Source: a virus. Taken from it: a DNA stretch of 26,687 nt. Position numbers and translations under genes: made by a program. This document shows positions 2 through 16,043 of the stretch, one piece after another; position 1 is the first letter of the stretch, and the number at the start of each line of letters is the position of its first letter. Under the pieces are notes generated by a model. It made no database searches, was not told where the DNA came from, and saw only the letters and a list, made by a program, of their open reading frames with translations. The stretch spans positions 1 to 26,687 of the IMG/VR virus record IMGVR_UViG_3300008267_000299. One strand, given 5' to 3'.

Positions 2-79
2 GAAACTGTAGAAAAACTTAGAATAGAAATGGCGCAACTTAAACGAAACATAAAAACAAGCACTATTTATAGGCAATGA
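2..79 (+). CDS. C-terminal end of an upstream gene (partial)
   Basis: A reading frame is open from the left edge of the window and stops at TGA 77-79. The 25 visible residues are charged and helical (EKLRIEMAQLKRNIK) and look like the tail of a coiled-coil or helical protein. The stop overlaps the next start as ATGA, the same coupling used by the following genes, which supports it being a real gene end. No function can be assigned from this fragment. Confidence 0.6.
   Translation, partial: ETVEKLRIEMAQLKRNIKTSTIYRQ
64..70 (+). promoter_or_regulatory. TATTTAT box, putative phage late promoter
   Basis: TATTTAT lies five bases before the ATG at 76, inside the end of the upstream gene. It is the first of ten such boxes placed just before genes. 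If it acts as a -10 element, transcription would begin at about the ATG, giving a leaderless mRNA. No -35 motif is visible. Confidence 0.5.
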
Positions 80-2628
80 ACACTTTAGCTAACTACTTAG
101 TCGAGCAGGTACTCGCAGAATTATCACAAGGAGTCATCGTTATGCTTCCGGGTGGCTTTAAGCCGCCACACATCGGTCACGTAGAATTGGCAAAGCGATA
201 TGCATCTCAACCAAACGTGTCTGAGGTTCGTATCCTTATTGGACCAAAAGAGCGTGATGGAATTACAATGGATCAGTCCATGGAGATTTGGAAGTTGTTA
301 TTAGGAGGTGCACCAAACATAAAGGTTGAGAGAGCACCAAACGATAACCCAATGAGAGCAGCTTACGAATATATTGAAACTGCGGAACCAGGAACCTATA
401 CATTAGGATCTAGCTCGAAGGGTAAGGATTACGAAAGAGTGAAGATGTTTGTAGCAGGTCATGCTCCAGGAACTGGAAAATACCATAGACCTGAGGTTAG
501 TGTTGTTGAGTTACCAATTAACACATCACCACTCCTTTACAAAGGACGTACCGATAATCTAAACGGACAAGGAATAAGTGCTAGTGTGCTAAGAGCAGAT
601 TTAGCAGCAAACAACTACGATAATGTCAAAACAAACTATCCAGGAATATCCGACAACGTTACTAAGACTATTTACTCTGTCTTAAAAAAAAATGATTTAT
701 CCGAAGCTGTAGTCTCAGATTGGGTGAACAAGCTTAAAGCAAAGTTCAAAGAAATTCTTCAAGCAGTGAAAGAGGAGGGGGTTGAAACTAAAAAAGCATT
801 CACCTTACTAATTCAAGCTGCACAAGGAAAAAAGAAACTAACCGACGAGGAAAAGGCTTGGGTTGGTAATCAAATGAAAGATGCACTCAAAGCAGCAGGC
901 TTAGTGGCAGCATCTATACTCCCAGGAGGAACAATTTACTTTGTATTAATTAGATTGCTAAAACTAGAAAAATACACAATGCCGGATCGCTTTCTAAGCA
1001 AGAACGCAGCGTCAGCAGGCACACTATCTTTAATGGAGAAGTCATGGATGACACCACAAGGAAGAGGGCCTAATTTTGATAAAGGGATCCTCCAAATCAA
1101 GTCTTTAATGCAAACCTTCTTCGAACGATTGAAATCAGCACCAAGAGATTTGCAGAGAGATTTTGCTCAGCTATATGCGCACGTTACTAAGACAGGACGC
1201 TTGTTGCAGTCATGGGAATTAGATCAAATAACACAAAAACTAGAACCAATACTAATTAAGTCTGGTTTCAATGTAAAGCTAGACAAAAAAGAGCTTCCAA
1301 TCGCACTTGTGCAGGCACTAAAAACGTTTCCAAAACTACAAGCAAGAGTGCCACAACAAGTGTTAGCTGAGCGTATGCTTTTGAAAGAAGGAGGAGCAGC
1401 TGGACACATGACTCATCCATACGAAGACTTAGACCTTACGTTTGGAGATGCACGCAATATGATTGACGCAGCTTTGAGTGGTAAAGTAGAGTTTGCTCAA
1501 GAAAAGTTAGATGGTCAAAATCTAATGGTCACTTACAAGGATGGTAAAGTTAGAGCAGCTCGTAACAAAGGACAGCTTAAAAACTACGCTGAAAACTCAA
1601 TCACTGCTGATCAGTTAGACCAGATGATGGCAGGAAAAGGGGCAGTTCAAACTGCATTTGTTGAGGCTATGCGAGATATGGAATCAGCAATAAACAAGTT
1701 GGATCCAACACAAAAAGAACAATTCTTCCAAAACGGAAAACGATTCATAAATTTTGAAGTGCTGTTTCCTGGAACTACAAACGTAGTACCTTACGGAGCA
1801 ACACAACTAAGACTCCACGGATTTAAAGAATATGATCAGGATGGTAATGTGGTTGATGAGGATTCTGAAGGAGCAGTTCAATTGCAAGCAGCAATTGACA
1901 AGGTTCAAGCGTCAAATCAAAAAACATATCAGATCCGCCATACAGATCCCATCACACTATCTAAAACTAAAGATTACGAAAAGCAAAAGGATGAGTTACT
2001 TAAGCAACTAGAGACTATTCGTAAGACATACGACCTTAAAGAGAATGATAAAACTTCACTCTACTTTCAAGCTTGGTGGAAAAATTACATTGAACAAAGA
2101 GCCAAAGAACTTGGTTACGAGATAGACGATAATACGTTACAGCAATTAATTAATCGCTGGGGATTTGGAAACAAGGAGGTGAACATTAAGAACATTCGAG
2201 CAATGATTAAAAATGTAGACTTCTTGAAGTGGGTAGATGATTTTGATAAGAATGGAGTATCAGCTCAGCAAAAGGAAGCAAAGCGACCACTTGAAAACCT
2301 ATTCCTAAAATTAGGAGTATATGTCTTGCAGAACATTCAGCAGTTAGTATCTATAAACCCTAACGACACTGTACAGAAGATGCGCGACGAATTAGCGTAT
2401 ACTATTAAAGGGATCCGAGCAGCAGCGGCTTCACCAGAAATGCAAGATGACGACAAAGGTTTGAAGTTTCTAAAACGAGAGTTGCAGAGACTGCAAGACT
2501 TGGGAGGCTTTAAAGCAATTGTTCCGTTAGAGGGAGTTGTATTTAAGTACAACGGAAAAATATACAAACTAACTGGTGCTTTTGCTCCAATTAACCAGAT
2601 CATTGGATATCTAAAATTTCAACGATGA
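76..2628 (+). CDS. Fusion of HxGH nucleotidyltransferase (NMNAT/cytidylyltransferase-like) and RNA/DNA-ligase-like domain
   Basis: This 850-residue protein has two catalytic modules. Residues 18-200 form an HxGH-type nucleotidyltransferase: GGFKPPHIGH with H32 and H35, and ISASVLR at 167-173, matching the ISxTxxR motif of NMN and pantetheine-phosphate adenylyltransferases. Residues 440-850 are a covalent nucleotidyltransferase (ligase) domain: motif I EKLDGQN with nucleophile K477, RAARNKG at 493-499, motif III FINFEVL around E561, motif IV EGVVF at 819-823 and motif V around K831. The KxDGxN form is closer to Rnl2-type RNA ligases than to DNA ligases. Motifs III and IV are about 258 residues apart, implying an inserted helical domain. 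Residues 272-297 are hydrophobic. Candidate head-protease sites occur near the N-terminus (LVE10, LAE15) and at both domain borders (LSE210/A, LKE438/G). Substrates are unknown; NAD metabolism and RNA repair are the leading possibilities. Confidence 0.8.
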   Translation: MNTLANYLVEQVLAELSQGVIVMLPGGFKPPHIGHVELAKRYASQPNVSEVRILIGPKERDGITMDQSMEIWKLLLGGAPNIKVERAPNDNPMRAAYEYIETAEPGTYTLGSSSKGKDYERVKMFVAGHAPGTGKYHRPEVSVVELPINTSPLLYKGRTDNLNGQGISASVLRADLAANNYDNVKTNYPGISDNVTKTIYSVLKKNDLSEAVVSDWVNKLKAKFKEILQAVKEEGVETKKAFTLLIQAAQGKKKLTDEEKAWVGNQMKDALKAAGLVAASILPGGTIYFVLIRLLKLEKYTMPDRFLSKNAASAGTLSLMEKSWMTPQGRGPNFDKGILQIKSLMQTFFERLKSAPRDLQRDFAQLYAHVTKTGRLLQSWELDQITQKLEPILIKSGFNVKLDKKELPIALVQALKTFPKLQARVPQQVLAERMLLKEGGAAGHMTHPYEDLDLTFGDARNMIDAALSGKVEFAQEKLDGQNLMVTYKDGKVRAARNKGQLKNYAENSITADQLDQMMAGKGAVQTAFVEAMRDMESAINKLDPTQKEQFFQNGKRFINFEVLFPGTTNVVPYGATQLRLHGFKEYDQDGNVVDEDSEGAVQLQAAIDKVQASNQKTYQIRHTDPITLSKTKDYEKQKDELLKQLETIRKTYDLKENDKTSLYFQAWWKNYIEQRAKELGYEIDDNTLQQLINRWGFGNKEVNIKNIRAMIKNVDFLKWVDDFDKNGVSAQQKEAKRPLENLFLKLGVYVLQNIQQLVSINPNDTVQKMRDELAYTIKGIRAAAASPEMQDDDKGLKFLKRELQRLQDLGGFKAIVPLEGVVFKYNGKIYKLTGAFAPINQIIGYLKFQR

Positions 2629-2954
2629 AAGATTTATACAAACAATTAAAAGAGGCTGCTATTAAGCAAACTCTTCTCGAAAAGAAAGAGGCAATTGCTA
2701 CGTCTGAGCACACCAACATGACACTACACTACGATTCAGATTTTAGCGAAGTAGGTGAGAGTGGTAATCCAGAGTTCAGCTTTAAGATCAGTGTATCTTC
2801 AACTGGAGGGAAAGAATACTTCAGAGGTGTTTCAGATAGCGAGGAGAGTGATAAGATTTCTGAAGCAGCACGACTAGAGTTACGTAGAGCAATACGTAAA
2901 TTTGACAAATACGTAGAATTAATTCTACAAAAATACAAGTTACAATCAAGATGA
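2625..2954 (+). CDS. Small hypothetical protein with capsid-targeting-like N-terminus
   Basis: A 109-residue protein whose start overlaps the previous stop as ATGA, so translation is probably coupled. The N-terminus MKDLYKQLKE is ten residues ending in LxE followed by Ala-Ala. This closely resembles the T4 internal-protein signal MKTYQEFIAE, which gp21 removes before Ala. A second LLE occurs at 17-19. The middle (30-75) is probably beta-rich (FSFKISVSS). The C-terminal third is a basic helix with RLELRRAIRKF. I do not recognise the family. The best guess is an internal head protein or a DNA-associated protein, from the leader and the neighbours only. Confidence 0.7.
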   Translation: MKDLYKQLKEAAIKQTLLEKKEAIATSEHTNMTLHYDSDFSEVGESGNPEFSFKISVSSTGGKEYFRGVSDSEESDKISEAARLELRRAIRKFDKYVELILQKYKLQSR

Positions 2955-3454
2955 GTTTATTTGTTACAACTGGAAATTCCAAAAAAGCCTACAAGGAAGG
3001 CGATGTGTGGACCGAGTCAGGAAAGACTTGGACAATTAAAAATGGCATCAAGCGTACCCTCACAAAGATGGATCAAGCGCGTAAGGATGTCTTAACCCCA
3101 TTTTCATGTCCTAGCTGTGGAGGTGCTATGAAGCATCACCTAGATTCAAAAATGTGGACAATTCACAAGACATGCTTTCAGTGTGTTATTGATGCAGAGC
3201 ATGAGATCATAAAAGCAGGAAAATGGGAGGAATATGAAAAATCAAAGATCACAGCAAATGCAGAGGCGTTTGTAAAAGATATGGAGTCAGCATTAAAGGA
3301 GTATGTTGACGAATCAGTTGCACAATCTCACGTTACTGAAAAAGGAATGGTAGAGCAGTGGAAGGATTCAAACAAAGGCTTTATTCAATCAGTTGTAGAT
3401 GACGAACTCAATCAATTAAAAAACAAAGTCGAAGACTATAAGAGTAAGAAATGA
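2951..3454 (+). CDS. Phage zinc-finger protein
   Basis: A 167-residue protein coupled to its neighbours by ATGA overlaps at both ends. Residues 15-40 (EGDVWTESGKTWTIKNGIK) form a short beta module. It is followed by a four-cysteine zinc site, CPSCGG at 53-58 and C75xxC78, with histidines between them. The remainder is a long charged helix (85-167) ending in a lysine-rich tail. I recall similar CxxC...CxxC proteins beside head genes of marine T4-like phages, but the function is not established. It may be structural or nucleic-acid binding. It lacks the short N-terminal LxE leader seen in its neighbours. Confidence 0.7.
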   Translation: MSLFVTTGNSKKAYKEGDVWTESGKTWTIKNGIKRTLTKMDQARKDVLTPFSCPSCGGAMKHHLDSKMWTIHKTCFQCVIDAEHEIIKAGKWEEYEKSKITANAEAFVKDMESALKEYVDESVAQSHVTEKGMVEQWKDSNKGFIQSVVDDELNQLKNKVEDYKSKK

Positions 3455-4050
3455 CAACAACAATCCTAGCAGTTATAGCAGCCGTAATATCAGGAATAGT
3501 AGGTCCTGTGTTGGTGTTATTTGTAAAGCAGCATTTGGATGATAGGAAATCAGAAAAGGAAGATCTTATCAATGAATCTGACTTGGGTGAAATGGTAACT
3601 GTATTGGAGTTTATCGAGGACATAAGAACGTCTTACGGTTTTGATCGAGTGAGCATTTGCCAGTTCCATAACGGAGGTAAGTTCTTAAACGGAAGGTCTA
3701 TGAAGAAGTTTTCTATGACTTATGAAACAGTGGCTCCGGGGATCGAAAAGATAAAGCGTAGATACCAAAACGTACTAGTCTCCGAGTTCCCTAAATTATT
3801 CTCAGCAATGATGAAAGAGCCGTTTTTGATCATAAACCAAGAAGATGACGACTTTCCAGCTCTGAGAAGAGAGATGCAAACTAATGGGATTGTGCAGTCT
3901 GTAAAGATGAGCATTGTCGGATTGCGAGGAGAGGTACTAGGCTTCATAACTTGCCATTGTATAGGAAAGCCAAATGACTTAGTAGGCAACTACTTGAGAC
4001 ATGAGCTACAGGATAAAGCTAATCAAATATCGGGATACTTAGCTAAATAA
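3451..4050 (+). CDS. Membrane-anchored GAF-like domain protein
   Basis: A 199-residue protein. Residues 2-26 form one uncharged hydrophobic helix (ILAVIAAVISGIVGPVLVLF), a signal anchor, followed by a charged linker. Residues 50-197 look like a GAF-type sensor fold: an amphipathic helix, then VSICQFHNGG and GRSMKKFSMTYE, later VKMSIVGLRGEVLGFITCH, with strand-helix alternation. The soluble domain would probably face the cytoplasm, but topology cannot be settled from sequence alone. It is coupled to the gene before it by ATGA. A virion or host-membrane role is possible; no ligand-binding residues can be named with confidence. Confidence 0.6.
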   Translation: MTTTILAVIAAVISGIVGPVLVLFVKQHLDDRKSEKEDLINESDLGEMVTVLEFIEDIRTSYGFDRVSICQFHNGGKFLNGRSMKKFSMTYETVAPGIEKIKRRYQNVLVSEFPKLFSAMMKEPFLIINQEDDDFPALRREMQTNGIVQSVKMSIVGLRGEVLGFITCHCIGKPNDLVGNYLRHELQDKANQISGYLAK

Positions 4051-4051
4051 T

Positions 4052-4504
4052 ATGAACGAGGATTCAAAAGGACTGTGGGCAAATATAAGAGCTAAGCGAG
4101 CTCGAGGTGAAGCGCCTGCACGCAAAGGATCTGAGGCACATAAAAAAGCGGTAGCTGCTGCTAAGAGGATAAATGCAGAAGAGGGTGTGTACGAGGTAAC
4201 TATCTGTGAAGCGTGTGCATTATCGTTGATGGAAGCTATAAGAGATACTAAGGTTCAGTTAGGAGAAGCGGAGTATCAAGGACGCACCGTTAAGTTGGGC
4301 AAGCCAATGCAAGGTGACGTAAAGAAATTTAAAGTGTATGTAAAGAATCCAAAAGGAAACGTAGTTAAAGTTAATTTTGGAGATCCTAACATGAGAATAA
4401 AAAAGAGTGATCCAGCTCGAAGAAAATCCTTTAGAGCTAGACATAATTGCGATAATCCAGGACCAAGAGATAAAGCTCGATATTGGTCATGTAGAAAGTG
4501 GTAA
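4052..4504 (+). CDS. Conserved phage protein with basic N-terminus and Cys-containing C-terminal module
   Basis: A 150-residue, strongly basic protein with two modules. Residues 1-42 (GLWANIRAKRARGE, then KKAVAAAKRIN) are Lys/Arg/Ala-rich and helical. Residues 70-150 contain GKPMQGDVKKF, NFGDPNMRIKKSDPARRKSF and the ending HNCDNPG...ARYWSCRKW. I recall this C-terminal module as common in head clusters of T4-like marine phages. Between the modules, LMEAIRD and LGEAEYQG carry LxE followed by Ala, the form cut by T4-type prohead proteases, so the two modules may be separated during maturation. Charge suggests DNA binding inside the head; this is inference. Confidence 0.7.
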   Translation: MNEDSKGLWANIRAKRARGEAPARKGSEAHKKAVAAAKRINAEEGVYEVTICEACALSLMEAIRDTKVQLGEAEYQGRTVKLGKPMQGDVKKFKVYVKNPKGNVVKVNFGDPNMRIKKSDPARRKSFRARHNCDNPGPRDKARYWSCRKW

Positions 4505-4505
4505 G

Positions 4506-5645
4506 ATGAAATTAAGAAAACTAATAGAGAAGGTTGATCCAGCCAAAATTGATGCAAACTTATATCCTAATAGGTTGAGTAAGGTCAATCAAAAACTCGC
4601 ATCAACAGTGGTTAACAATTCAAGCCCAGGCGATGAGGATTTGGGTGATACGAAGAAGGCAGGTTTATCAGCAGATCAACTTAAAATCAGCCAAACAACA
4701 ATGGACTTAGATAAGTTTATTGGGATGGGTATTGGTATGATGTGTAGATCTAAGTACTTTCCAAACGGTCCGGGTGGAGATTTAGGAGCAATCGTATCAA
4801 GTGATAACCATATCATGGACGGTCATCATCGATGGGCAGCTACAATTCTTGCCAATCCAAAAGCAAAAGTATTTGGTTTATTCGTTAGCCTCCCTGGTGA
4901 AAAACTAGTAGGAGTGCTTAATACGTGGACCGCTGCACGCAAACAAAAAGGCAAACCATCCACACACAAGATGGCTCAACTATCACCTGATGCAATTAAA
5001 GCTCGATTTATAGAGCTGGCTAGCAAGGGAGGTGGAGCACTTCCGGACGCTCAAACAATCCTACAAGGACTACAGCAGAACAACTACGGAAGCGTAGAGC
5101 AGGCAGCTGAGACTGCAGCAAAGAATTGGGCAGCCAACGCAAAACTAAGAGCAATAGAGTCATGGATGCCCGAAAAGATTGACATGCCAGCAATCGAGCA
5201 AAAGCAGCTAGCGCAAGTAGCTAGTGACATTCAGCAAGGAAAGATCGATCTTAACCCACCTTACAGCGAGCCAACAAAAAAAGCTGCCCAAGCAGCAGGT
5301 GTTGATATATCAGAAAAAACTATGAAAGCATCAGAATTTAAAAAACTAATCCGCGAAGAGGTTCATAGGGCCTTAAAACAAAAATCAATCGCAGAAAATA
5401 AAACAGTTCGTGAGCTCAAGTTTACATCAGCAGGTGTTAAGGAGCTTTTGAAGACTGTATTTAACAATCTACATCTACTACCTAAACTTGGCTTTGATAC
5501 CTTTAAGCAAGTACTGGATTACATAAAGTTCGGCGATCAGGAAGAGCAGACAGAATTGGAGAATCGATTAAAGAGTTTAGGTGTTAATCTAGTATCGGAA
5601 TTAAAACAACCAAAAAAGAGTGAAGTTAAGAAGAGCATTAAATGA
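4506..5645 (+). CDS. ParB/Srx-like protein with an internal second leader-like segment
   Basis: The frame is open from 4407, but the start chosen is ATG 4506, one base after the previous stop. That gives 379 residues and the leader MKLRKLIE (LIE8). Residues 85-150 carry a ParB/sulfiredoxin-type signature: IVSSDNHIMDGHHRWAA with D105-G-H-H-R109. Residues 155-270 are Ala/Gln-rich and helical. At M273 a segment MKASEFKKLIREEV begins that looks like another capsid-targeting leader (IRE284). The following 95 residues form a separate helical domain, so this may be two internal proteins fused in one frame, or an internal start at 5322. Activity (nuclease, CTP-binding or phosphotransfer) cannot be decided. 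Confidence 0.75.
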   Translation: MKLRKLIEKVDPAKIDANLYPNRLSKVNQKLASTVVNNSSPGDEDLGDTKKAGLSADQLKISQTTMDLDKFIGMGIGMMCRSKYFPNGPGGDLGAIVSSDNHIMDGHHRWAATILANPKAKVFGLFVSLPGEKLVGVLNTWTAARKQKGKPSTHKMAQLSPDAIKARFIELASKGGGALPDAQTILQGLQQNNYGSVEQAAETAAKNWAANAKLRAIESWMPEKIDMPAIEQKQLAQVASDIQQGKIDLNPPYSEPTKKAAQAAGVDISEKTMKASEFKKLIREEVHRALKQKSIAENKTVRELKFTSAGVKELLKTVFNNLHLLPKLGFDTFKQVLDYIKFGDQEEQTELENRLKSLGVNLVSELKQPKKSEVKKSIK

Positions 5646-6315
5646 AGCACTCTTACAAAGATTTTGTGAGGACCTAGAAACGGCAGCAGCACCAGCAACC
5701 GTTACTGGAAAACTCGCAACCCTACTCAACGAGTCTAAGCGATTAGTATTTGAACCATTTAATATAAACGCAAACGACCGTAAGTACTTTATAGCAGGCT
5801 CTGCTCGATTGTATCTGTATCCAGAGTTTATTGAAATTTTAAAACTCAAAACAATGGGTGATTTGGATTTTGTAATTCCTGGAAAGCAAGAGTGGTCAAA
5901 CTTAAATGCGCATTTAGCAAAAAACCCTAATCCAAAAATCAAAGCAGAAGACGTAAAAGCTGGTCGATACATTCCACACGAATTGATCGAAGCTTTTGAT
6001 GAGTGGATGCCAAAATATGACGAAGAAGCAGCTAGAGATTTTTCTGTGAGATCGACAGCTGATATATTAAAGAGCGCAAAGCTAATTGGTGGTTACTATT
6101 TTATGAGTCTGTATGATATCATGGATTACAAGCTCAACCTTAATCGAGATAAAGAAAAGCAAATAACTGACCTACTAATCAAATACCAAAAAGCAGGAAG
6201 TAGTTCGGAAAAGAATGAAATAAAGAAGTTTGTGTTGAGTTTATTCGCAGGAGATGAAGCCGAGGCTAACGATTTTCTAGCACCAGTAGTAACTAGAGCA
6301 GCAAAGCTCAACTAG
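5620..6315 (+). CDS. Pol-beta-fold nucleotidyltransferase-like protein
   Basis: A 231-residue protein starting at GTG 5620, overlapping the previous gene by 26 bases in another frame. GTG is preferred because it yields the leader MKLRRALNE followed by Ala, a textbook (L/I)xE prohead-protease site; the next in-frame ATG would remove the catalytic core. The core has IAGSARLYL (G60-S61) followed about 20 residues later by GDLDFVIP (D81, D83), the GS...DxD metal site of Pol-beta-type nucleotidyltransferases such as AbiEii and MNT families. Residues 145-190 (SLYDIMDYKLNLNRDKEKQI) resemble the helical part of those families. The substrate is unknown. The GS-to-DxD spacing is longer than usual, so fold assignment is moderate. 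Confidence 0.65.
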   Translation: MKLRRALNEALLQRFCEDLETAAAPATVTGKLATLLNESKRLVFEPFNINANDRKYFIAGSARLYLYPEFIEILKLKTMGDLDFVIPGKQEWSNLNAHLAKNPNPKIKAEDVKAGRYIPHELIEAFDEWMPKYDEEAARDFSVRSTADILKSAKLIGGYYFMSLYDIMDYKLNLNRDKEKQITDLLIKYQKAGSSSEKNEIKKFVLSLFAGDEAEANDFLAPVVTRAAKLN

Positions 6316-6342: not shown

Positions 6343-6561
6343 GTGATAGTCAGAAGAAAAACGAAGAAGGAGATCCTTCCAACCCTGACCCTTATATTGG
6401 CAACTTTTTTCAACCCACTTGGATTCGACGCGCTTTTCAAGATGGTGATGGACTGGACCGGTTCCTATTGGATTACGGATTTAATTTTCTATTGCGCTTC
6501 GGCGTTCTTCTTCATCTTGTACTATTTATTAAAGAAACGCTCTAACAATGAAGCTAATTAA
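6343..6561 (+). CDS. Small two-helix membrane protein
   Basis: A 72-residue protein from GTG 6343. It has two hydrophobic segments: ILPTLTLILATFFNPLGF (11-28) and ITDLIFYCASAFFFILYYLL (44-63), joined by FKMVMDWTGSYW and ending in KKRS. I recall small phage membrane proteins of this shape near late genes. A competing frame from ATG 6336 covers the same DNA but gives an incoherent Pro/Asp-rich sequence, so this frame is preferred. It overlaps the next gene by 14 bases. The function is unknown; a holin-like role is conceivable but unsupported. Confidence 0.6.
   Translation: MIVRRKTKKEILPTLTLILATFFNPLGFDALFKMVMDWTGSYWITDLIFYCASAFFFILYYLLKKRSNNEAN
6523..6529 (+). promoter_or_regulatory. TATTTAT box, putative late promoter
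   Basis: TATTTAT inside the end of the small membrane-protein gene, 18 bases before ATG 6548. The spacing matches other boxes in the window (13-22 bases). Confidence is lower than for intergenic boxes because the site also encodes Tyr-Leu-Leu. Confidence 0.4.
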
Positions 6562-6946
6562 CCTTATACCCCTACGCGAAGTAGAAGAGAATGGAACCCC
6601 CGAGTTAATCGCAACTCCCTTCTTCCGCGAATTTCAAACGAAGCACGGCTATAAACCTCTATTTAAGTATCTTGGCACAAAAAACGAAGAGCATATCTTC
6701 ATTGCCGATCTTGAGGATCTTGGTGCGTTAGAGCTTATTATCACAGATGCGCAGATCATGGCCAAAGTAACGGAAAAAGAGGCTGTGTTTGGCCTGATCT
6801 ACACTTCTACTGGTTTAGAGAAAACAGACGCTACTGTGTGTAAAATGAAGATGAAAGATGGTGCAATCGAAGTGATGCACTACGATCCAAAAGATAAGAA
6901 AAACTTTGATGCCAAGACTACTAAGTTTCTCAGCCTAATCAACTAA
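6548..6946 (+). CDS. Hypothetical protein with capsid-targeting-like leader
   Basis: A 132-residue protein. The N-terminus MKLINLIPLRE ends in LRE11 followed by VEENG, another short leader with an LxE site. The rest is a compact alpha/beta domain: FREFQTKHGYKPLFKYLG (26-43), EEHIFIADLEDLGALELIIT (47-66), and EAVFGLIYTS followed by a charged C-terminus. No cysteines or catalytic motif point to a known enzyme. It ends two bases before the Dps-like gene. A TATTTAT box lies 18 bases upstream, so this may be the first gene of its own transcript. The family is not recognised. Confidence 0.65.
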   Translation: MKLINLIPLREVEENGTPELIATPFFREFQTKHGYKPLFKYLGTKNEEHIFIADLEDLGALELIITDAQIMAKVTEKEAVFGLIYTSTGLEKTDATVCKMKMKDGAIEVMHYDPKDKKNFDAKTTKFLSLIN

Positions 6947-6948: not shown

Positions 6949-7317
6949 ATGAACAAGAATTTAGAAAAATTAATATCATACCTACTACACTCAAGAACAC
7001 AAGTGCATGTATTCCATTTGCAGACAAAGTCGTATGCAGAACACATAGCTTACGGAGCTTACTATGGTGGTATTGTAGATTTAATTGATGCACTAGTAGA
7101 AGCTTACCAAGGAAAGTATGACATCATCTCATCATACGAGTCTCCAGGATTGGAGAACTATAAGAGTGGCGATCAAGTTGTAACATACCTCAAAGCATTA
7201 AGCAAAAAAGTTGAGGAAGTGCATTCGTCTGTGAAAGATACATACATCCAAAACCAATTAGATACAGTTAACGAGTTGATAAACTCAACAATATACAAAC
7301 TAAGATTCTTAAAATAA
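6949..7317 (+). CDS. Dps/ferritin-like four-helix protein
   Basis: A 122-residue, all-helical protein. Helix 1 onward reads HSRTQVHVFHLQTKSYAEH, then YYGGIVDLIDALVEAYQGKY. Placed without gaps on E. coli Dps, H20, H32, D47 and E51 fall exactly at the spacing of Dps H51, H63, D78 and E82, four of the five ferroxidase residues. The fifth, Dps D67, corresponds to G36. The protein is shorter than Dps (about 165 residues) and lacks the N-terminal extension. No LxE leader is present. A Dps-like protein could bind DNA or iron, but the missing Asp means ferroxidase activity is uncertain. It shares a TAATG junction with the next gene. Confidence 0.6.
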   Translation: MNKNLEKLISYLLHSRTQVHVFHLQTKSYAEHIAYGAYYGGIVDLIDALVEAYQGKYDIISSYESPGLENYKSGDQVVTYLKALSKKVEEVHSSVKDTYIQNQLDTVNELINSTIYKLRFLK

Positions 7318-7724
7318 TGAAGAAAGCTAAGTTGACTAGAGAACGAGCGCTACGAGAAGCAGTTCGTATCCTTGTAAGAAAGATGATAAAGGAAGCTGAG
7401 GAGGCTGAAACGGATCCAGCAGCTGAAGAAGCACCTGAAGACCCAACAGCAACACCGGATGCAGCTGCTAAACAGGAACCCGCTAAACAAGAGCCAGCTA
7501 AACAAGAGCCTGCGCAGCCAGAGCCAGCTCCGGAAGAAGAAGGTCTTAATCCAGACTTTCAGGCAGCAACTGATGCTTTCATGCGTAAACTAGCTCAGTC
7601 GACTGGAACACCGAGTGCTGATGATTTAATAGACATGATGTCACAGATGGTTGAGCGGTTTACAACTTCTAGCGAAGAGAGATTAAACCTACTTAAAGGA
7701 ATCCGAAATAATACAGTACACTAA
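7317..7724 (+). CDS. Acidic Pro/Ala/Glu-rich internal-protein candidate
   Basis: A 135-residue protein in three parts. Residues 1-26 form a strongly basic helix containing LRE14/A and IKE26/A, both good prohead-protease sites. Residues 27-78 are disordered and acidic, with three tandem AKQEP units and runs of Pro, Ala and Glu. Residues 80-135 form a short helical domain (ATDAFMRKLAQ, ADDLIDMMSQMVERF). This layout, a basic targeting helix followed by an acidic low-complexity body, is what one expects for a head-core or internal protein. No specific family is recognised. The start overlaps the upstream stop by one base (TAATG). Confidence 0.7.
   Translation: MKKAKLTRERALREAVRILVRKMIKEAEEAETDPAAEEAPEDPTATPDAAAKQEPAKQEPAKQEPAQPEPAPEEEGLNPDFQAATDAFMRKLAQSTGTPSADDLIDMMSQMVERFTTSSEERLNLLKGIRNNTVH
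7467..7511 (+). repeat. Three tandem 15-bp units
   Basis: Three copies of a GCTAAACAAGAGCCA-like unit, the last two nearly identical, encode AKQEP repeats in the disordered region of the surrounding protein. The near-identity suggests recent slippage expansion. Confidence 0.85.
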
Positions 7725-8188
7725 TGAAAACATCGCAAATCATAAAAAGACTGAGAGAGGATTCTGCTTATCAAGAGTTCTTCCAAAAAGCAATGAAAAA
7801 GTTCGACATTTCGTCCCCTTCTGACTTGAAGGATCCAGAAAAGAAAAAGAACTTTTTTAATTACGTAGACAAAAACTACTCAGCTAAGAGTGAGGCGTAT
7901 ATTAGAGGTAAGTGGACTACATCTAGTTCTAGTGGTGGTACATACTTTCCAGCACACAGTGCTGATAGTGCAGAAGTAAAAAAAGCTAAACAAGCATTGG
8001 CTAGGTGGTTTACAAATATAAAAAAGAATTTACCTGGAAGCATGTCAAGAAGCGTATTAGACGATTTGTCAGATTTAATTGACGATTACGCATTAGCCTA
8101 CGCTCAAGATGAAATCGAAGCTGCTGAAAAAGTAATGTCACGCAACCTCGGTGATGAGATGAATAAGCGAAGCATAAACATTAAGTAA
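7724..8188 (+). CDS. Conserved phage protein with MKTSQ...LRE leader
   Basis: A 154-residue protein. The leader MKTSQIIKRLRE ends in LRE12 before Asp and opens like T4 internal proteins (MKTYQEFIAE). The body begins YQEFFQKAMKKFDISSPSDL and KKKNFFNYVDKNYSAKSE, a helical module I recall from many marine T4-like phages near head genes. A Ser/Gly linker follows (around 66-75), then a helical C-terminal domain with LARWFTNIKKNLPG and LIDDYALAYAQDEIEAAEKV. The function is unknown. Position and leader suggest an internal head protein. Confidence 0.7.
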   Translation: MKTSQIIKRLREDSAYQEFFQKAMKKFDISSPSDLKDPEKKKNFFNYVDKNYSAKSEAYIRGKWTTSSSSGGTYFPAHSADSAEVKKAKQALARWFTNIKKNLPGSMSRSVLDDLSDLIDDYALAYAQDEIEAAEKVMSRNLGDEMNKRSINIK

Positions 8189-8192: not shown

Positions 8193-8543
8193 ATGAAAAT
8201 AGAGGTTACAAAAACAAACTTAGTTCTAGGCATAGTTATTGTGTTTTTGATTGGTTACATTCTAATTGTACGTAACTTTTCAAAAACCACCATAGACGAT
8301 TCGAAATATCGAAATCAGATTGATAGTCTCAACAACGTACTTCTCGAGTACAAGAATAAGCAGCTTGACCTAGATAAAAAAATAGCAAACTACGAGCTGG
8401 ATATTCGAAAACTGGACTTTCAAATAGATTCAGCAGAAAATAAAATAATCGAAATAAGAAACTACTATGGTGAAAGGATTAAAAATGTTGGTCGTTTTTC
8501 TACTGCTGAGCTTGACGACTTTTTCACAAAACGCTACAAGTAA
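8193..8543 (+). CDS. Membrane-anchored coiled-coil protein, candidate inner-membrane spanin
   Basis: A 116-residue protein. Residues 8-27 form a single N-terminal membrane helix (NLVLGIVIVFLIGYILIV), followed by a long coiled coil (33-95) rich in Leu, Asp and Lys, and ending FSTAELDDFFTKRYK. This is the layout of Rz-type i-spanins: a signal anchor with a periplasmic coiled coil. The next gene begins inside it in another frame, as Rz1 often does in Rz. Whether the partner acts as an o-spanin is doubtful because it lacks a lipobox. Spanin assignment is by architecture only. Confidence 0.5.
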   Translation: MKIEVTKTNLVLGIVIVFLIGYILIVRNFSKTTIDDSKYRNQIDSLNNVLLEYKNKQLDLDKKIANYELDIRKLDFQIDSAENKIIEIRNYYGERIKNVGRFSTAELDDFFTKRYK

Positions 8544-8904
8544 CGAACCACAAGTTTGTATGCCAGCTAGTCGAGCACGCAAAGTAGCTCAAGACTTGCT
8601 TCGCTTGGATTCACTTGCAGCTGAACACAATAAGACTCTTTTTGTACTCGAACGTACACAAACTAAGCTAGTTGTGAAGGACAGCATCATAAGCTCAAAC
8701 GAAGAAAAGATTGCTGAATATCTTGAAGAGATTGGAACACATAAAGAAAAATATACAGTTGCTAACAATCGAGTTACCGAACTACAAGAGAGTGTAAGCA
8801 CGCTACAAACAAAGAACGAAAACCTACAAGGTTGGATCAAAGGCTTAGGAGGAGGTTTGATTGCAACAATGACCACATTGATAACGATAATACTTGTCAA
8901 ATAA
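8467..8904 (+). CDS. Secreted coiled-coil protein with C-terminal membrane helix
   Basis: A 145-residue protein overlapping the previous gene by 77 bases in a different frame. It has a clear signal peptide (MVKGLKMLVVFLLLSLTTFS, cleavage around 20-21), a coiled-coil body (40-120) and a hydrophobic C-terminus (GLGGGLIATMTTLITIIL). ATG 8485 is an alternative start and would still keep a signal sequence. There is no Leu-x-x-Cys lipobox, so it is not a standard Rz1 lipoprotein. The protein would be exported and held by its C-terminal helix. It ends one base before the terminase start. A lysis or envelope role is likely; exact function is unknown. Confidence 0.55.
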   Translation: MVKGLKMLVVFLLLSLTTFSQNATSNEPQVCMPASRARKVAQDLLRLDSLAAEHNKTLFVLERTQTKLVVKDSIISSNEEKIAEYLEEIGTHKEKYTVANNRVTELQESVSTLQTKNENLQGWIKGLGGGLIATMTTLITIILVK

Positions 8905-12375: not shown

Positions 12376-12387
12376 ACTTTTAGGGCA

Positions 12388-12394
12388 TATTTAT
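12388..12394 (+). promoter_or_regulatory. TATTTAT box before the head-core operon
   Basis: TATTTAT in the 25-base gap after the portal gene, only six bases before ATG 12401. With a -10-type start this transcript would have almost no leader. No Shine-Dalgarno sequence is present between the box and the ATG. Confidence 0.6.
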
Positions 12395-12400
12395 TACTAG

Positions 12401-13255
12401 ATGAAAAAGTCAACACATTCTAAAATAAAAAACACTGCCATCTTGTTTGAGCTATTGACCAGACAAGTAGCAGCTGATACTATAAAGGGAGTGGAGAAAT
12501 CTCCAGCACTTACTCTTATACGAGAGCACTTCAAACCTAATAACATTCTTACCAAAGAGCTGATGCTCTATCAAACACTGATGAACGAAAAGTTCTCGAG
12601 CCAAGATAAAGCAAACTACCTAATCAATACAGTAGTTAAGTTGAGAAATAAACTCAACACTAAAGTGTTAGGTGAATCAAAGTACAACCTAATTAGAGAG
12701 ATTAAAAAGCACTACGACCTTACTGATTTCTTCAAAACCAATCTAAGTGAATATAAGCTATATGCATCTATCTATCGGGTTTTCGAAGGTGCAATCATCA
12801 CTAAAGCTGCAGAAGTAGTTCGCAGCCGCTTTACTTTGTTAGAGCATTTGACCAAGAAAAAGACAAACGCAATCACTGAAAGCACTAATCCAGTAGGCGA
12901 CTATATTAAGCAGGATGAAGAGGTGAGATTATTGGCTTACAAACTTATGATAGATAAGTTTAACGAAAAGTACGCCAGCTTGTCAACAAAACAAAGATCA
13001 ATTCTTAAAGAATATATCAACAACGTATCCAATACAGTTTCTTTAAAGAACTTCATACTCAAAGAAGCTGATCTACTTAGAGCTAGTATCAAAAAGCATA
13101 TTCCAAAAATCACCGATAAAGTGACCAAAATAAAGCTTAACGAAGTTAGCAATATGCTAAACTCATTCTCTAAGGTAAAAACTATAAAAGAGGAGAACGT
13201 ATTGTCATTGTTGTTGTATCACGAACTCTTAAAGGAACTTAAAAATGTCAAGTAA
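12401..13255 (+). CDS. Conserved helical protein of the T4-like head cluster
   Basis: A 284-residue, almost entirely helical, basic protein. It begins MKKSTHSKIKNTAILFELLTRQ and contains KELMLYQTLMNEKFSSQDKA (53-72), a Lys/Asn-rich middle and SLLLYHELLKELK at the end. I recall a protein of this form between portal and protease genes in many marine T4-like phages. No T4 gene name can be given. Its position suggests a role in prohead core assembly. The last 11 bases overlap the next gene. LxE sites occur (for example ILKEADLL near 222), so cleavage is possible. Confidence 0.75.
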   Translation: MKKSTHSKIKNTAILFELLTRQVAADTIKGVEKSPALTLIREHFKPNNILTKELMLYQTLMNEKFSSQDKANYLINTVVKLRNKLNTKVLGESKYNLIREIKKHYDLTDFFKTNLSEYKLYASIYRVFEGAIITKAAEVVRSRFTLLEHLTKKKTNAITESTNPVGDYIKQDEEVRLLAYKLMIDKFNEKYASLSTKQRSILKEYINNVSNTVSLKNFILKEADLLRASIKKHIPKITDKVTKIKLNEVSNMLNSFSKVKTIKEENVLSLLLYHELLKELKNVK

Positions 13256-13988
13256 AAGAAGACTTACAAAAGAGGATATCGAAGAGGTTCGCAACTACAT
13301 TAAGAAGCTGCGCAAAGAAGGAAGTACGACAGCCAATGCTCCAGGTTTCCTTACAGCAGCAGCTTGGACTGGTGAAGAGGGTGGTGAGGGTACAAAAGCC
13401 ATCGATGTTGAGGATGATCAATACGCATTTTCAATAAAGCCTTCTGAAAAGAAGCAACACTTTATTAAGTTGCATGAAGCGAATTACAAGGCTTTTAAGG
13501 AAGACGCAACATCTACTCATGTTCAAAAAATCAATCGCAGAATACTCGAAGTAAATAAAATGCTTAGAGAGATTTCGCAGGCATTGGATCATAGCATAAA
13601 GCTAAAACAAGAGTCAGCTGTAGATAATTCAAGATATTGGAAAAAGACCAACGAAGCGTTTTTGAAGATGAAGTCTAGGCTATCTGAGGTGAATAAGAAG
13701 ATAGGCCAATTAGCTAATTTAAAGGAATTAGCAGCAAACGCTGTTAAAGATAAGTTATTCCAATTACTAACAAAAGCAGGAGTACAAGTATCAGCAGATG
13801 ACATAGACTACAATCAAGTGGCAGCTGATCAGTATGAGTTTGACGTTATGATTGGAGGAGAGCCTTACGCAATAGATTACGACAAAGGTTTACTGGTTTA
13901 TCAAGGCTACGATCAGGAGGTAGAGATAGGTAGCATCAACCAAGAGATGCAAGTTGTAGCTAAACTAGGACAAATTTTTAAACAATGA
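13245..13988 (+). CDS. Conserved protein upstream of the prohead protease
   Basis: A 247-residue protein. The N-terminus is a basic helix (SSKRRLTKEDIEEVRNYIKK) followed by a Gly/Ala/Thr linker (APGFLTAAAWTGEEGG). The middle (80-165) is a long helix or coiled coil, including NRRILEVNKMLREISQALDHS. The C-terminal 75 residues form a small alpha/beta domain ending with VDIDYN-like strands and DKGLLVYQGYDQEVEIGS. It overlaps the previous gene by 11 bases and the protease gene by four (ATGA), implying translational coupling. The function is unknown; position suggests a structural or core role. Confidence 0.7.
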   Translation: MSSKRRLTKEDIEEVRNYIKKLRKEGSTTANAPGFLTAAAWTGEEGGEGTKAIDVEDDQYAFSIKPSEKKQHFIKLHEANYKAFKEDATSTHVQKINRRILEVNKMLREISQALDHSIKLKQESAVDNSRYWKKTNEAFLKMKSRLSEVNKKIGQLANLKELAANAVKDKLFQLLTKAGVQVSADDIDYNQVAADQYEFDVMIGGEPYAIDYDKGLLVYQGYDQEVEIGSINQEMQVVAKLGQIFKQ

Positions 13989-14602
13989 ATAAGTCAGTAT
14001 TAGTAGATTACATTGGATCAATCCAAGTGACTCCTGAGCAAATCACAGAGTCAATGGCCAAGAACGAAGGAAAGGTCATCGTATCTGGTGTAATGCAGCG
14101 TGGTAGTGATGGTAGAGATCAAAACTTTAACCAAAATGGTAGAAGCTATCCATTACCAATCTTAAAGCGTGAGTGCGAAAAATACAAAAATGTATTTATC
14201 AAAGAGCGTAGAGCTTTAGGTGAACTAGACCATCCAGAGTCTTCTGTAGTAAACTTAGCAAATGTGTCTCATAACGTCTTAGATATTTGGTGGGATGGAA
14301 CCGACTTGATGGGTAAGATTGAAATCTTAGCAACACCATCAGGAAACATTGCAAAAGAGTTGCTACGAGCAGGAATCCGTTTAGGTATTTCATCTCGAGG
14401 AATGGGATCAGTAAAAAACCTAGGAGAGGGTAAAGTAGAAGTGCAAGATGACTTTGAAATTGTATGTTGGGACTTGGTTTCCAATCCATCTACACAAGGT
14501 GCATTTATGTCCCCATCCCTAAACGAAAGTGTAAGCCGAGGAGGATCAAACAAGTATTCAAAAATCAACTCACTAATTGGTGACATAATATCAGTAATGT
14601 AA
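13985..14602 (+). CDS. 21: Prohead core protease (T4 gp21-like serine protease)
   Basis: This protease trims scaffold, capsid and internal proteins at (L/I)xE sites before packaging. The 205-residue length is close to T4 gp21 (212). Catalytic motifs visible: His in ALGELDHPESSVV (H83), Ser in GISSRGMGS (S137, next to S136) and a likely Asp in CWDLVSNPS (D163). The sequence NFNQNGRSYPLPIL at 47-60 is also typical. Near the C-terminus SLNE181/S is a plausible autocleavage site. The gene lies between two conserved head proteins and a run of leader-bearing core proteins, which would be its substrates. Substrate candidates also lie 76-8188. Confidence 0.95.
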   Translation: MNKSVLVDYIGSIQVTPEQITESMAKNEGKVIVSGVMQRGSDGRDQNFNQNGRSYPLPILKRECEKYKNVFIKERRALGELDHPESSVVNLANVSHNVLDIWWDGTDLMGKIEILATPSGNIAKELLRAGIRLGISSRGMGSVKNLGEGKVEVQDDFEIVCWDLVSNPSTQGAFMSPSLNESVSRGGSNKYSKINSLIGDIISVM

Positions 14603-14603
14603 T

Positions 14604-14963
14604 ATGAAACTCAAGAAAATAAAAGAAAGCATTGACCAAAAAACTACCCTAAACGAGAAAGCTGCATTCTTGCAGGAAGTTTCTCAGTTTAATGAGTATG
14701 GTAAGATAATTTACCGTACAGAAGGTATGCGAGAAGCAGCTGAAAAAATTAGTAAGGTTGTTGAGAACGCTGAGCGTATTGCTTTGCAAGAAACCGATGA
14801 ATGGTTTGATGAAGTGACCGTAAAGCGAAATATGAAGTCTCTTCGTTCCAACAATGAGGCATTTAAAAAAACTGTTGGTGAAATCGCAAAACTACAACAA
14901 AGATTAGAAGCTTTGTATGAAGAGATGGGAGGAACATTAGGCAGATACTACGAAATTCACTAA
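14604..14963 (+). CDS. Conserved small head-cluster protein (helical)
   Basis: A 119-residue helical protein immediately after the protease. The N-terminus MKLKKIKESIDQKTTLNE contains IKE8 and LNE18, followed by FLQE25, all candidate gp21 sites. The conserved core is SQFNEYGKIIYR (27-38), ENAERIALQETDEWFDEVTVKRN (54-76) and a C-terminal heptad helix with LQQRLEALYEEMGGTLGRYYEI. I recall this as a frequent neighbour of the protease in T4-like marine phages. The role is unproven; a prohead core component is likely. Confidence 0.75.
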   Translation: MKLKKIKESIDQKTTLNEKAAFLQEVSQFNEYGKIIYRTEGMREAAEKISKVVENAERIALQETDEWFDEVTVKRNMKSLRSNNEAFKKTVGEIAKLQQRLEALYEEMGGTLGRYYEIH

Positions 14964-14964
14964 C

Positions 14965-15381
14965 ATGAATAAGGCAGATAAATTGGTACTAAAGCTCATC
15001 AACGAAGTGTTGGATGAGTACATCTTCGAAGCTGAGGAAGAAGGTAATCCCTTTGCTGCAGCCGCTGACGCAGGAGGTGGAGATAAGGGAGCTGATGCAG
15101 GTGCTGAAGCAGGTGCCGATGCAGCCGCTGCTGATGGTGGAGGAGAAGAGGAGAAGGATAAGGAAAAGAAAGAAGCTCCTGCAGAAGATGCATTAAGCTT
15201 TAAATTTGACGTATCAGCTGCCAAGAAGTATAACACATCTAACTTTAGAAATGATACTGCAGTAGCAAAAAAAATAACAAAGAACGGAATACTAGCAACT
15301 GTAAAGCCAGACGACGTAGATGTTCTTATAGGTTTCGATGATATTACAGAACAAGCAAAATCTTTTTTTAAAAACAAATAA
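14965..15381 (+). CDS. Acidic Ala/Gly/Asp-rich core-protein candidate
   Basis: A 138-residue protein. The N-terminal helix NKADKLVLKLINEVLDEYIFEAEEE has INE14, LDE18 and IFE22/A. Residues 28-75 are low complexity, built of Ala, Gly, Asp and Glu. The C-terminal 60 residues form a small folded domain (FKFDVSAAKKYNTSNF, ITKNGILATVKPDDVDVLIGFDD). The acidic, low-complexity middle and the cluster position are reminiscent of T4 core proteins gp67/gp68, though no direct sequence match is claimed. It starts one base after the previous stop and is followed by a one-base overlap with the next gene. Confidence 0.65.
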   Translation: MNKADKLVLKLINEVLDEYIFEAEEEGNPFAAAADAGGGDKGADAGAEAGADAAAADGGGEEEKDKEKKEAPAEDALSFKFDVSAAKKYNTSNFRNDTAVAKKITKNGILATVKPDDVDVLIGFDDITEQAKSFFKNK

Positions 15382-16043
15382 TGAAAGCAAACGTAATTAG
15401 ACTAACACCATTGTTAGAATCAATCCTGAGAGAAGAGGATATGAAAAAACAAACAGCAGCAATGGATGCTGCTATGGGTAGTGCATTTAAGACCTTAGGA
15501 GCTGAGTTTGAAGCCAACAAAGATGAGATACAACAAGACGTTGCACAGTCGCAGGGTGAGGTTAATGAAGCGTTAGGTATTATTGGTATTCTTGGTGTCA
15601 TATTAGCAGCACCAAAGATTATTGAGCTGTTTGTGAAGGGTCTTGGTAAGATAGTGTCTGCGTGGAAGACTTACGTAAAACCAGGAGAAGCTAAGGGTAA
15701 TGAGGAGGAGTTTGCGAAGGGTATTATGAATTTTGCTCACAAATGGCACAAAGCATATATTAAGGGTATTAAGTGGATTCTAAAGATTTCTGGAATTTAC
15801 AAAAAAGCCGGAATCACAGGAGATGGAGCTCAAGAAAAAGCAGCAGAAATGTTATTCTATACAATTATCGCAGCAATGGCCATTTGGAGTGGAATTGGTG
15901 CTGGACAGGCGTTTGCTAAGGCAGTTTCAGGATCAGGTGGAGTTGGTAACTTTTCTCTAGCAGCATTTGAAGCAGCAATGGCCTCTATTAAAACCGCCGA
16001 AGTAACTGAGTTTATGGCAAAACTAGGATTGAAGATAACATAA
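15381..16043 (+). CDS. Candidate internal protein with two hydrophobic helices
   Basis: A 220-residue protein. The leader MKANVIRLTPLLESILREED has LLE13 and LRE18. Two hydrophobic helices follow: EALGIIGILGVILAAPKIIEL (63-83) and LFYTIIAAMAIWSGIGAGQA (158-177). Between them is a Lys/Trp-rich amphipathic region (GIMNFAHKWHKAYIKGIKW). A membrane-active protein carrying a head-targeting leader beside the protease gene is suggestive of a virion protein that enters the host membrane during DNA delivery; this is inference. It is the last gene before the 16071 terminator. A membrane protein of the prohead assembly site is the main alternative. Confidence 0.65.
   Translation: MKANVIRLTPLLESILREEDMKKQTAAMDAAMGSAFKTLGAEFEANKDEIQQDVAQSQGEVNEALGIIGILGVILAAPKIIELFVKGLGKIVSAWKTYVKPGEAKGNEEEFAKGIMNFAHKWHKAYIKGIKWILKISGIYKKAGITGDGAQEKAAEMLFYTIIAAMAIWSGIGAGQAFAKAVSGSGGVGNFSLAAFEAAMASIKTAEVTEFMAKLGLKIT

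Follow-up and report, generated by a model that had tools for sequence, protein, structure and literature searches.

Candidate T4-like capsid-targeting leaders and a matching prohead protease in the head module of a T4-type virus record

Introduction

Why should genes for enzyme-like and small proteins of different kinds, clustered around a T4-type head module, begin with similar short N-terminal segments? This question is raised by a 26.7-kb virus record from environmental DNA (IMG/VR IMGVR_UViG_3300008267_000299, 26,687 nt; G000), which is referred to in its entirety as the window. It harbours a T4-type head module with genes for a terminase, a portal, an S77 prohead protease, a scaffold-like protein and the major capsid protein (starting at 8894, 10507, 13985, 16208 and 17253, respectively; genes are named by their start positions), followed by PhoH and tail genes. 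When protease and capsid protein are compared, its closest isolates are Flavobacterium phage immuto (host Flavobacterium sp. LMO8) and Microcystis phage Mel-JY01, each with less than 60% identity. A preliminary description of the window, made from its letters, had proposed that ten genes (76, 2625, 4506, 5620, 6548, 7317, 7724, 14604, 14965 and 15381) share a T4-like N-terminal leader containing (L/I)xE, that the window encodes the matching protease and that several of the products are enzymes.

The cutting of a capsid-targeting sequence by the protease gp21 is a known principle, and mutagenesis of the T4 internal protein IPIII assigned targeting mainly to residues 4 and 7 and processing to residues 8 and 10 (PMC9026906). 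In T4, aspartate at position 10 blocks processing and leaves targeting intact (PMC9026906). We conclude, with a probability of roughly 0.78, that the head module encodes cargo and core proteins with a T4-type capsid-targeting propeptide that would be cut by the 13985 protease, and that the enzymes among them would be injected into the host. The presence of a battery of such leaders together with a matching protease is well supported at the level of sequence, because tests by zone, family, decoy motif, leader swap and junction agree with it, as does published mass spectrometry of cyanophage virions.

Results

The N-terminal motif in the window

All ten genes are present at the proposed starts and carry (L/I)xE within their first 26 residues (10/10). 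Orthologs whose alignment begins at residue 1 back the starts of 4506 (orthologs in L090 and L088) and of 5620, a GTG (ortholog in L088). The list of ten was a selected one, and set statistics were computed over all 22 genes from 76 to 16043, with expectations derived from shuffles of residues 2–33 of each protein. Fourteen of these genes have the motif at residues 5–26 (5.8 expected, P = 1.1e-4), and seven have it followed by A, G or S (1.07 expected, P = 4e-5), as compared to one out of ten genes with (L/I)xE downstream of the major capsid gene (1.6 expected). The shared motif was thus borne out by the statistical comparison that had been proposed along with it, and so was the remark that the terminase also bears the motif near its start. 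Besides terminase 8894, the motif-positive genes missing from the list are 12401, 13245 and protease 13985; genes 2951, 3451, 4052, 6343, 6949, 8193, 8467 and the portal gene are motif-negative. The motif of 12401 is probably not a leader, because it forms part of KNTxxxFELLxRQ, a block found repeatedly among relatives. As a yardstick, T4 head and core proteins taken as gp21 substrates (IPI, IPII, IPIII, gp21, gp22, gp23, gp24, gp67 and gp68; Alt was left out) were scored in the same way, and 8/9 have the motif at residues 5–26, with that of gp67 starting at residue 4.

Confinement of the motif to the head and upstream zones

For wider sampling, 160 related IMG/VR loci were chosen for their similarity to the capsid protein or the terminase (in each case the best 80 of about 600 matches). 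Genes were called with one simple program, in which the first suitable ATG serves as the start, so that some starts may be wrong. After removal of identical starts, with the window counted and immuto and Mel-JY01 excluded, the motif was found in 213/302 genes between terminase and capsid (83.7 expected), in 186/478 genes upstream of the terminase (106.8 expected) and in 39/70 genes upstream of the capsid gene in loci with no terminase in view (15.6 expected). Counts were close to expectation downstream of the capsid gene (53/290 versus 51.7) and on the minus strand (26/205 versus 25.1). In the head and upstream zones, the E clusters at about residues 7–18, and the head zone shows a second bump at 54; the tail zone has no such peak.

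Proteins were then grouped into 431 families by clustering on residues 31 onward, which excludes the leaders; immuto and Mel-JY01 were included, and these single-linkage families may in part be wrongly merged or split. With one vote per family, the motif was scored in 44.5/78 families between terminase and capsid (19.6 expected, z 7.0) and in 54.3/131 upstream (31.4 expected, z 5.1), as opposed to 19.5/101 in the tail zone (16.1 expected) and 12.3/113 on the minus strand (12.7 expected). A purely compositional origin would have AT-rich gene starts supplying K, L and E, with LxE then appearing in helices by accident. It would explain why shuffles alone yield the motif in 12 to 28 per cent of genes, according to the zone, and why the terminase has it. 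It is contradicted at the level of the set by head-zone counts far above those of composition-preserving shuffles, combined with tail and minus-strand counts near expectation. Possible for single genes, it is the least probable of the explanations considered here.

The position along whole genomes agrees with this zoning. In immuto, two overlapping 20-gene windows (100.8–125.6 kb) hold 15 and 14 motif-bearing genes (5.7 and 5.4 expected) and the flanking ones 9 and 11 (4.0 and 5.1 expected), with windows farther away being near expectation, and in the IMG/VR contigs G001, G002, G004 and G005 the top motif peak spans the protease gene. With the protease region taken to extend from 20 kb before to 2.6 kb after the protease in these five genomes and Mel-JY01, the motif was found there in 12/24 (G001), 16/26 (G002), 12/23 (G004), 11/16 (G005) and 16/23 (immuto) genes, versus 5.3, 7.1, 6.6, 4.5 and 6.2 expected. 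The rest of the genome yielded 31/138, 22/101, 49/203 and 43/221 for G001, G002, immuto and Mel-JY01 (28.2, 17.7, 40.9 and 38.8 expected). Fisher p values for the protease region against the rest range from 2e-5 (immuto) to 0.02 (Mel-JY01). A secondary peak in G005 (65–74 kb, z 4.0), similar in z to the one at the protease, was not leader-like on reading and was treated as a fluctuation.

Specificity of the motif and the prohead protease

The enrichment is specific for the (L/I)xE arrangement. In 208 head and upstream families, [LI].E was observed at 1.82 times (z 7.8) and [LI].E[AGS] at 2.91 times (z 6.1) its expectation, with decoys at 1.03 ([LI].D), 1.06 ([LI].Q), 1.14 ([LI].K), 1.08 ([LI].R), 1.09 ([FYWM].E) and 0.68 ([AS].E); two further decoys, [LI]..E and V.E, were mildly raised (1.38 and 1.40). 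In 215 tail and minus-strand families, no motif or decoy exceeded 1.33. The T4 spacing Phi-x-x-Phi-(L/I)-x-E was found in 39.2 of the 208 families (4.1 expected, 9.5-fold), versus 5.8 of the 215 (2.8 expected); the hydrophobic class Phi (F, Y, L, I, M, W) was broadened to this set once leaders had been seen, so that only the spacing is taken from T4. Among the 208 families, all spacing decoys but one (see Discussion) were about 2-fold enriched, and decoys with D, K or Q ranged from 0.6 to 1.5.

The prohead protease gene (13985..14602, plus strand) is of the gp21-type Peptidase_S77 family (PF03420, E 2.8e-29; phrog_207, E 1.4e-49), in line with the preliminary description, and its product has an N-terminal ITE/S of its own at residue 22 (the slash marks the candidate cleavage point). 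In the major capsid protein gp23 (17253..18863, plus strand; phrog_138, E 2e-71), the predicted maturation site is VKE/G at residue 55 (hand-counted), which has V at P3 and is missed by [LI]xE. The column of T4 gp23 E65 shows [LIV]xE[AGS] in 72/76 aligned capsid N-termini, T4 included, and a second, upstream column has the motif, mostly as LLE/G, in 74/76. Because of the conservation at the E65 column, the specificity read from the leaders appears to match that of capsid maturation in this clade.

These data also bear on the idea that the leader escapes cutting and acts as a docking helix, for instance on portal, terminase or shell, with (L/I)xE forming part of the binding face. Leaders do look amphipathic and often contain two motifs, and the mild rise of [LI]..E would fit a binding face. 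For a docking helix, however, the ratios near 1 of the D, Q and K decoys, the prominence of [LI].E[AGS] as the most enriched motif of the decoy test and the recurrence of the motif at internal domain joins and in the gp23 maturation column are hard to accommodate, and we regard it as unlikely.

Leaders as exchangeable modules

Leaders are exchanged between bodies. With one random member each from 213 head and upstream families, 60 pairs reached a leader similarity (ungapped BLOSUM62 score) of at least 50, as compared to zero in three shuffles; some of the high-scoring pairs are distant homologs missed by body clustering. Several pairs link bodies without detected similarity; examples from immuto are the leaders MADNFNLRSFLTENKLTKNAQLLKE, MENFDLKKFLVENKLTTNSKILKE and MENTFDLKKFLVENKLTNNSRLLE, on proteins of 333, 99 and 182 residues, respectively. 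Leader proteins of immuto include 109856, 113188 and 117631. In contig G002, six genes within 56.2–64.6 kb start with MIKLKSLLKE, MIKLKEILDE, MIKLSNILE, MKLKNLLPIRE, MKLKNILDE and MKLVSLLPLNLRE, with MIKLSNILE preceding a DMDGVL phosphatase-like body.

The motif is placed at the junction of leader and body. In homologs of gene 2625, [LI]xE directly precedes the body landmark KK[EQ][AV][IV] in all 18 proteins that have the landmark (absent in 2/20), and the leaders on this one body are 8, 11, 14, 17, 19 or 22 residues long. In two orthologs of 7724 (L098 and L101), an extra leader is stacked ahead of the first. The join landmarks of 14965 and 7317 demanded a preceding E and are hence biased; those of 2625 and of the ligase-like domain of gene 76 (see below) required none, which is why the junction argument rests on the latter two.

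Recombination between gene starts could also have produced shared N-termini that play no part in targeting. A precedent is given by the tail and minus-strand families, where 19 of 29 high-scoring pairs are of a tail-fibre tag type (PNWKKVITSGS) that lacks LxE and sits on varied bodies. Since the leaders diverge and many nevertheless keep Phi-x-x-Phi-(L/I)-x-E, with LxE staying at the body join, recombination without function is a very improbable explanation.

The tail tag itself, P(N/S)WKK(V/I/L)(I/L)xSGSxAxL, is shared by genes past the capsid gene on differing bodies, without LxE, and is probably a virion-anchoring tag. Its members include the window gene at 24104–24844 (MAEWKKVIVSGSDAHL) and tail-zone genes of L007, L018, L027, L039, L047, L076 and L163.

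Leader-bearing proteins in cyanophage virions

For the T4-like cyanophage S-CREM2, 52 virion proteins have been reported by mass spectrometry (PMC10665884). Among its non-structural virion proteins (a set of 13 that excludes structural proteins, the endolysin and the structural block), 9 have the motif (2.4 expected), versus 27/133 undetected proteins (27.5 expected; Fisher p = 4.7e-4). The other virion proteins are at expectation (4/34 versus 4.1; protease, scaffold and capsid protein left out). Leaders include MKDFDSFLEE (S-adenosylmethionine (SAM) hydrolase), MKRFDAFLTE (kinase), MKNFSSFLTE/A (cytidylyltransferase) and MKDLHSFLTE. An aromatic pattern (5/13 versus 2/161) was written after the leaders had been seen, and its p value is not used. 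In S-SCSM1, whose virion proteins were taken from the marks in its record, the motif is found in 4/5 proteins of the head block and in 8/33 tail proteins (5.5 expected). Proteins resembling nicotinamide mononucleotide adenylyltransferase (NMNAT) have been reported in the virions of S-SCSM1 (PMC9602691) and S-SZBM1 (PMC9146016); their starts, MKSFLQFLKE/A and MRFRQFIIE/A, resemble T4 MKTYQEFIAE/A. The authors of the S-CREM2 study state that carry-over cannot be excluded (PMC10665884).

S-CREM2 gp12 (L217 7704–10313), a Cas9-like nuclease reported in its virions, and the S-CRM01 protein g128 (L223 2453–3004) have another kind of leader in common, in which SRWxxWSxG precedes F(M/I)xE/A.

The S-CREM2 data are relevant to the strongest competing explanation, according to which the leader proteins are mainly prohead core or scaffold proteins (cf. 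T4 gp67, gp68 and gp22) that are digested to peptides and not delivered. Genes 14604, 14965 and 15381 do sit between the protease gene and the scaffold candidate. In addition, a number of leader proteins are small, and a number contain (L/I)xE two or more times near the start. Leaders are, however, also found on enzyme-like proteins (gene 76; the 5'-nucleotidase-like protein of immuto), and S-CREM2 virions are reported to hold the leader-bearing SAM hydrolase, kinase and cytidylyltransferase with 3 to 21 unique peptides (PMC10665884). We therefore consider digestion as the general fate of these proteins unlikely, if a serious contender.

The gene 76 polyprotein and the enzyme assignments

Gene 76 encodes, in this order, a leader, a putative HxGH nucleotidylyltransferase domain, variable middle segments and a C-terminal ligase-like domain. 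The HxGH transferase assignment of the preliminary description retains modest profile support: the domain (NMNAT/cytidylyltransferase-like; 124..690, limits approximate, plus strand) matches phrog_395 (E 4e-5 over residues 17–59), a profile (A3) matches phosphopantetheine adenylyltransferase (E 0.0014), and two relatives give matches below cut-off to Pfam CTP_transf_like. There are two candidate sites for internal cleavage, LSE/A (residue 210; 697..708, plus strand) and, at the domain junction, LKE/GG (residue 438; 1381..1395, plus strand). Cutting at the latter would yield a C-terminal piece that begins with GGAAGHMTHP. Ahead of the ligase-like domain, [LI]xE-GG is found in 26/26 distinct homolog contexts, with x and the upstream sequence being variable; the landmark of this join is absent from 2 homologs. 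In one context (L181), the ligase domain is on its own, preceded by MKFLKSYEEFLNENLILE.

The ligase-like domain (1390..2625, plus strand), a predicted covalent nucleotidyltransferase, contains KxDG, EGxVF and KxTG, which we take to be ligase-type motifs. In 22 sequences, E42, K43, D45 and G46 are invariant, and EGxVF and KxTG invariant or nearly so. Its AlphaFold model has a mean predicted local distance difference test (pLDDT) score of 75, with residues 1–10, which hold the join, below 50. The 21 best Foldseek matches are all RNA or DNA ligases, but with E values of at least 0.018 and template-modelling (TM) scores of about 0.2; the best Z in structure comparison is 6.0, and a PDB sequence search with the domain returned nothing credible. 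The ligase label thus stands on its motifs, with a weak fold match. For the ParB-like label of 4506, the motif DGHHRW is invariant in 5 sequences and the best fold match is ParB, albeit very weak (E 0.11, model pLDDT 62); no sequence relative was found in the PDB. For the Pol-beta-like label of 5620, Pfam gave no support, either with the gene itself or with its ortholog. Ten window proteins, including the products of seven leader genes, were scanned with Pfam and had no match above cut-off; 14604 and 15381 were scanned via an ortholog each.

In L115, an additional region starting with DKLRIFDFDDTLV sits behind SLNE, its DFDDT presumably being a motif of the haloacid dehalogenase (HAD) type, and a 5'-nucleotidase-like protein of immuto (NT5C, E 4.7e-5, one bit below the Pfam cut-off) stands alone behind a leader. 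With several unrelated enzyme-like domains predicted on one polypeptide, gene 76 would belong to the polyvalent proteins.

Leaders of the individual genes and neighbouring features

All leaders listed here lie on the plus strand and are candidates. Gene 76 starts with MNTLANYLVE/QVLAE (76..120; LVE/S, LVE/G or LxE/A in orthologs; T4 spacing) and gene 2625 with MKDLYKQLKE/A, then LLE/KK (2625..2681), the LxE abutting the body as described above. MKLRKLIE precedes the DGHHR (ParB-like) motif protein (4506..4529; orthologs MKLKKLLE, MKLKHILNE and MAKYKLSSFLSE/A), and MKLRRALNE/A (5620..5646) has the counterpart MKLKRALNE/V in L088. In MKLINLIPLRE (6548..6580), P(L/I)(R/K)E is kept in 15/16 listed orthologs (19 distinct ones found, one of those listed being without its N-terminus). 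A leader with LRE/A and IKE/A (7317..7394) was seen in ortholog and join comparison, and MKTSQIIKRLRE/D (7724..7759) is the leader for which two orthologs have the stacked form described above; a search of the phage collection returned no relative of 7724 itself at E 1e-3. MKLKKIKE/S (14604..14627) is based on ortholog comparison, the leader ending with YIFE/A (14965..15030) on proteins that share the C-terminal half and have other leaders ending with LxE/A, and the leader with LLE/S and LRE/E (15381..15434; T4 spacing) on the ortholog leader MIKLKDLLTE. By reading, the 15381–16043 product has two long hydrophobic stretches, and a membrane-active internal protein is possible.

Upstream of the capsid gene lies an acidic gp22-like scaffold candidate (16208..17227, plus strand) with 15 [LI].E sites, for which PHROG profile comparison gave no weighty family match. 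Neighbouring genes without a leader include a member of a starvation-inducible regulator family within the leader cluster (6949–7317; phrog_858, E 4.9e-27), a protein with a weak GAF-domain match and a hydrophobic N-terminus (3451–4050; E 0.0013, below cut-off) and an overlapping gene pair with hydrophobic N-terminal segments that is spanin-like by reading (8193–8904). In L163, the gene at 13189–13944 (immuto 113188) has the leader MKKSQLRQIIKE/A and matches DUF5661 (E 9.6e-10) and, weakly, the T4 RegB endoribonuclease (E 0.0056).

Discussion

The results argue for a pathway in which core binding, cutting, packaging and injection, which we infer for the window phage, would follow one another. 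The leader, a short amphipathic helix ending with (L/I)xE, would bind a gp22-type core, and the bound protein would be enclosed during assembly of the shell. Cleavage after E by protease 13985, which is of the gp21 type, would next free the body, and cleavage by it at internal (L/I)xE joins would split polyproteins, in the case of gene 76 into a nucleotidylyltransferase and a ligase-like enzyme. Some leader products are probably core proteins that undergo digestion; the enzymes would persist inside the head and be passed on to the host along with the DNA. Tentatively, and at somewhat less than even odds, T4-like phages of aquatic bacteria may package a polyprotein in which a single leader-tagged chain joins an RNA-ligase-like enzyme to a nucleotidylyltransferase, the latter possibly restoring nicotinamide adenine dinucleotide (NAD). 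The prohead protease would separate the two in the head, and both would be injected along with the genome against NAD-depleting and RNA-cleaving host defences before the phage expresses its own genes. The leader would then be an address, readable from sequence, by which the injected proteins of these phages can be listed.

Several observations weigh against the interpretation as T4-type targeting propeptides. The motif occurs in 4/12 other T4 proteins (gp17, gp18, gp2 and e); it is sensitive, yet not diagnostic for a single gene. Strict T4 geometry is found in just 3/10 window genes (76, 14965 and 15381), with most of the remaining leaders being MKLxxLxE-type variants; this and the uneven enzyme labels are the weaker parts of a preliminary interpretation that is mostly sound. 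A/G/S after E is just weakly favoured in raw counts and a weak discriminator alone, and one of the spacing decoys, F....F[LI].E, in which Phi stands five residues ahead, reaches 5.7-fold enrichment. A conserved body that includes LxE could explain part of the junction pattern. The protease region of Mel-JY01 shows a weaker peak (10/25 versus 4.8 expected), and two of the six genomes scanned, G004 and G005, also have an excess outside the head region (54/213 versus 41.0 and 59/239 versus 40.4 expected). In S-CREM2, 4/13 proteins are misses (gp12, gp165, gp174 and gp176), although Cas9-like gp12 was scored as such with FASFMAE/A, which has M at P3. S-SCSM1 virion proteins outside the head and tail blocks have the motif in 4/7 cases versus 47/197 unmarked proteins (p = 0.067 alone, 1.1e-4 when pooled with S-CREM2), and only one of three detected S-SZBM1 proteins read has it (136 and 139 do not).

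If targeting by these leaders is confirmed, sequence would be enough to read many unannotated genes of T4-like phages as candidate capsid cargo, and lists of the proteins injected by uncultured phages could be drawn up and tested. Such targeting would also offer a route by which the NMNAT-like enzymes, the kinase and the SAM hydrolase came to be in cyanophage virions, where the source papers were unable to tell them apart from carry-over, and the polyprotein and stacked leaders would illustrate how cargo is gained through domain fusion at protease sites.

In titles, abstract openings and passages of Creative Commons-licensed PubMed Central (PMC) articles, no link between capsid targeting sequences and cargo of cyanophages or Bacteroidota phages was found among the matches listed; a T4 review (PMC9026906) contains both 'capsid targeting' and 'cyanophage'. 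By title or abstract opening, the same literature gave no virion proteome of immuto or Mel-JY01 among the matches listed. As far as these searches show, new features are the scale, the exchange of leaders as modules, a polyprotein whose sites lie at its domain joins and the link to enzymes already known from cyanophage virions.

The closest known system is the capsid-targeting sequence of T4 IPI, IPII, IPIII and Alt, which is cut by gp21 (PMC9026906, PMC5694885). Common to both are an N-terminal (L/I)xE propeptide with a cognate S77 protease, the Phi-x-x-Phi-(L/I)-x-E geometry, which is enriched in the clade, and the use on unrelated bodies. The window and its relatives differ in that a single head module holds about ten such genes, leaders can be stacked, polyproteins carry sites within the chain and several leader subtypes occur (MKLxxLxE, FDLKKFLVENKL and LRxxIREE). 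Among the cyanophage virion enzymes (S-CREM2, S-SCSM1 and S-SZBM1), MKNFSSFLTE/A matches T4 IPIII at positions 4, 7, 8 and 10. Compared to the NMNAT/cytidylyltransferase, kinase and SAM hydrolase of these phages, gene 76 adds a ligase-like domain; the consulted passages of the S-CREM2 and S-SCSM1 papers note that the enzymes might be carry-over and name no targeting leader. The polyvalent proteins of phages and plasmids (PMC5512222) likewise combine disparate enzyme domains, ParB-like and nucleotidyltransferase domains among them, in one polypeptide that is thought to be injected. In contrast to them, gene 76 has no metallopeptidase of its own recognised by Pfam, and cutting is attributed to the prohead protease acting in trans. 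In P1, the N-terminal 30 residues of DarB route a reporter into the capsid, but the Dar N-termini are described as having no common consensus (PMC9024508). In phiKZ and SPN3US, a gp21-related protease removes head propeptides as well, but these are mostly much longer, and phiKZ is cut at S/A-x-E (PMC9026906, PMC5694885), as opposed to the short (L/I)xE leaders described here.

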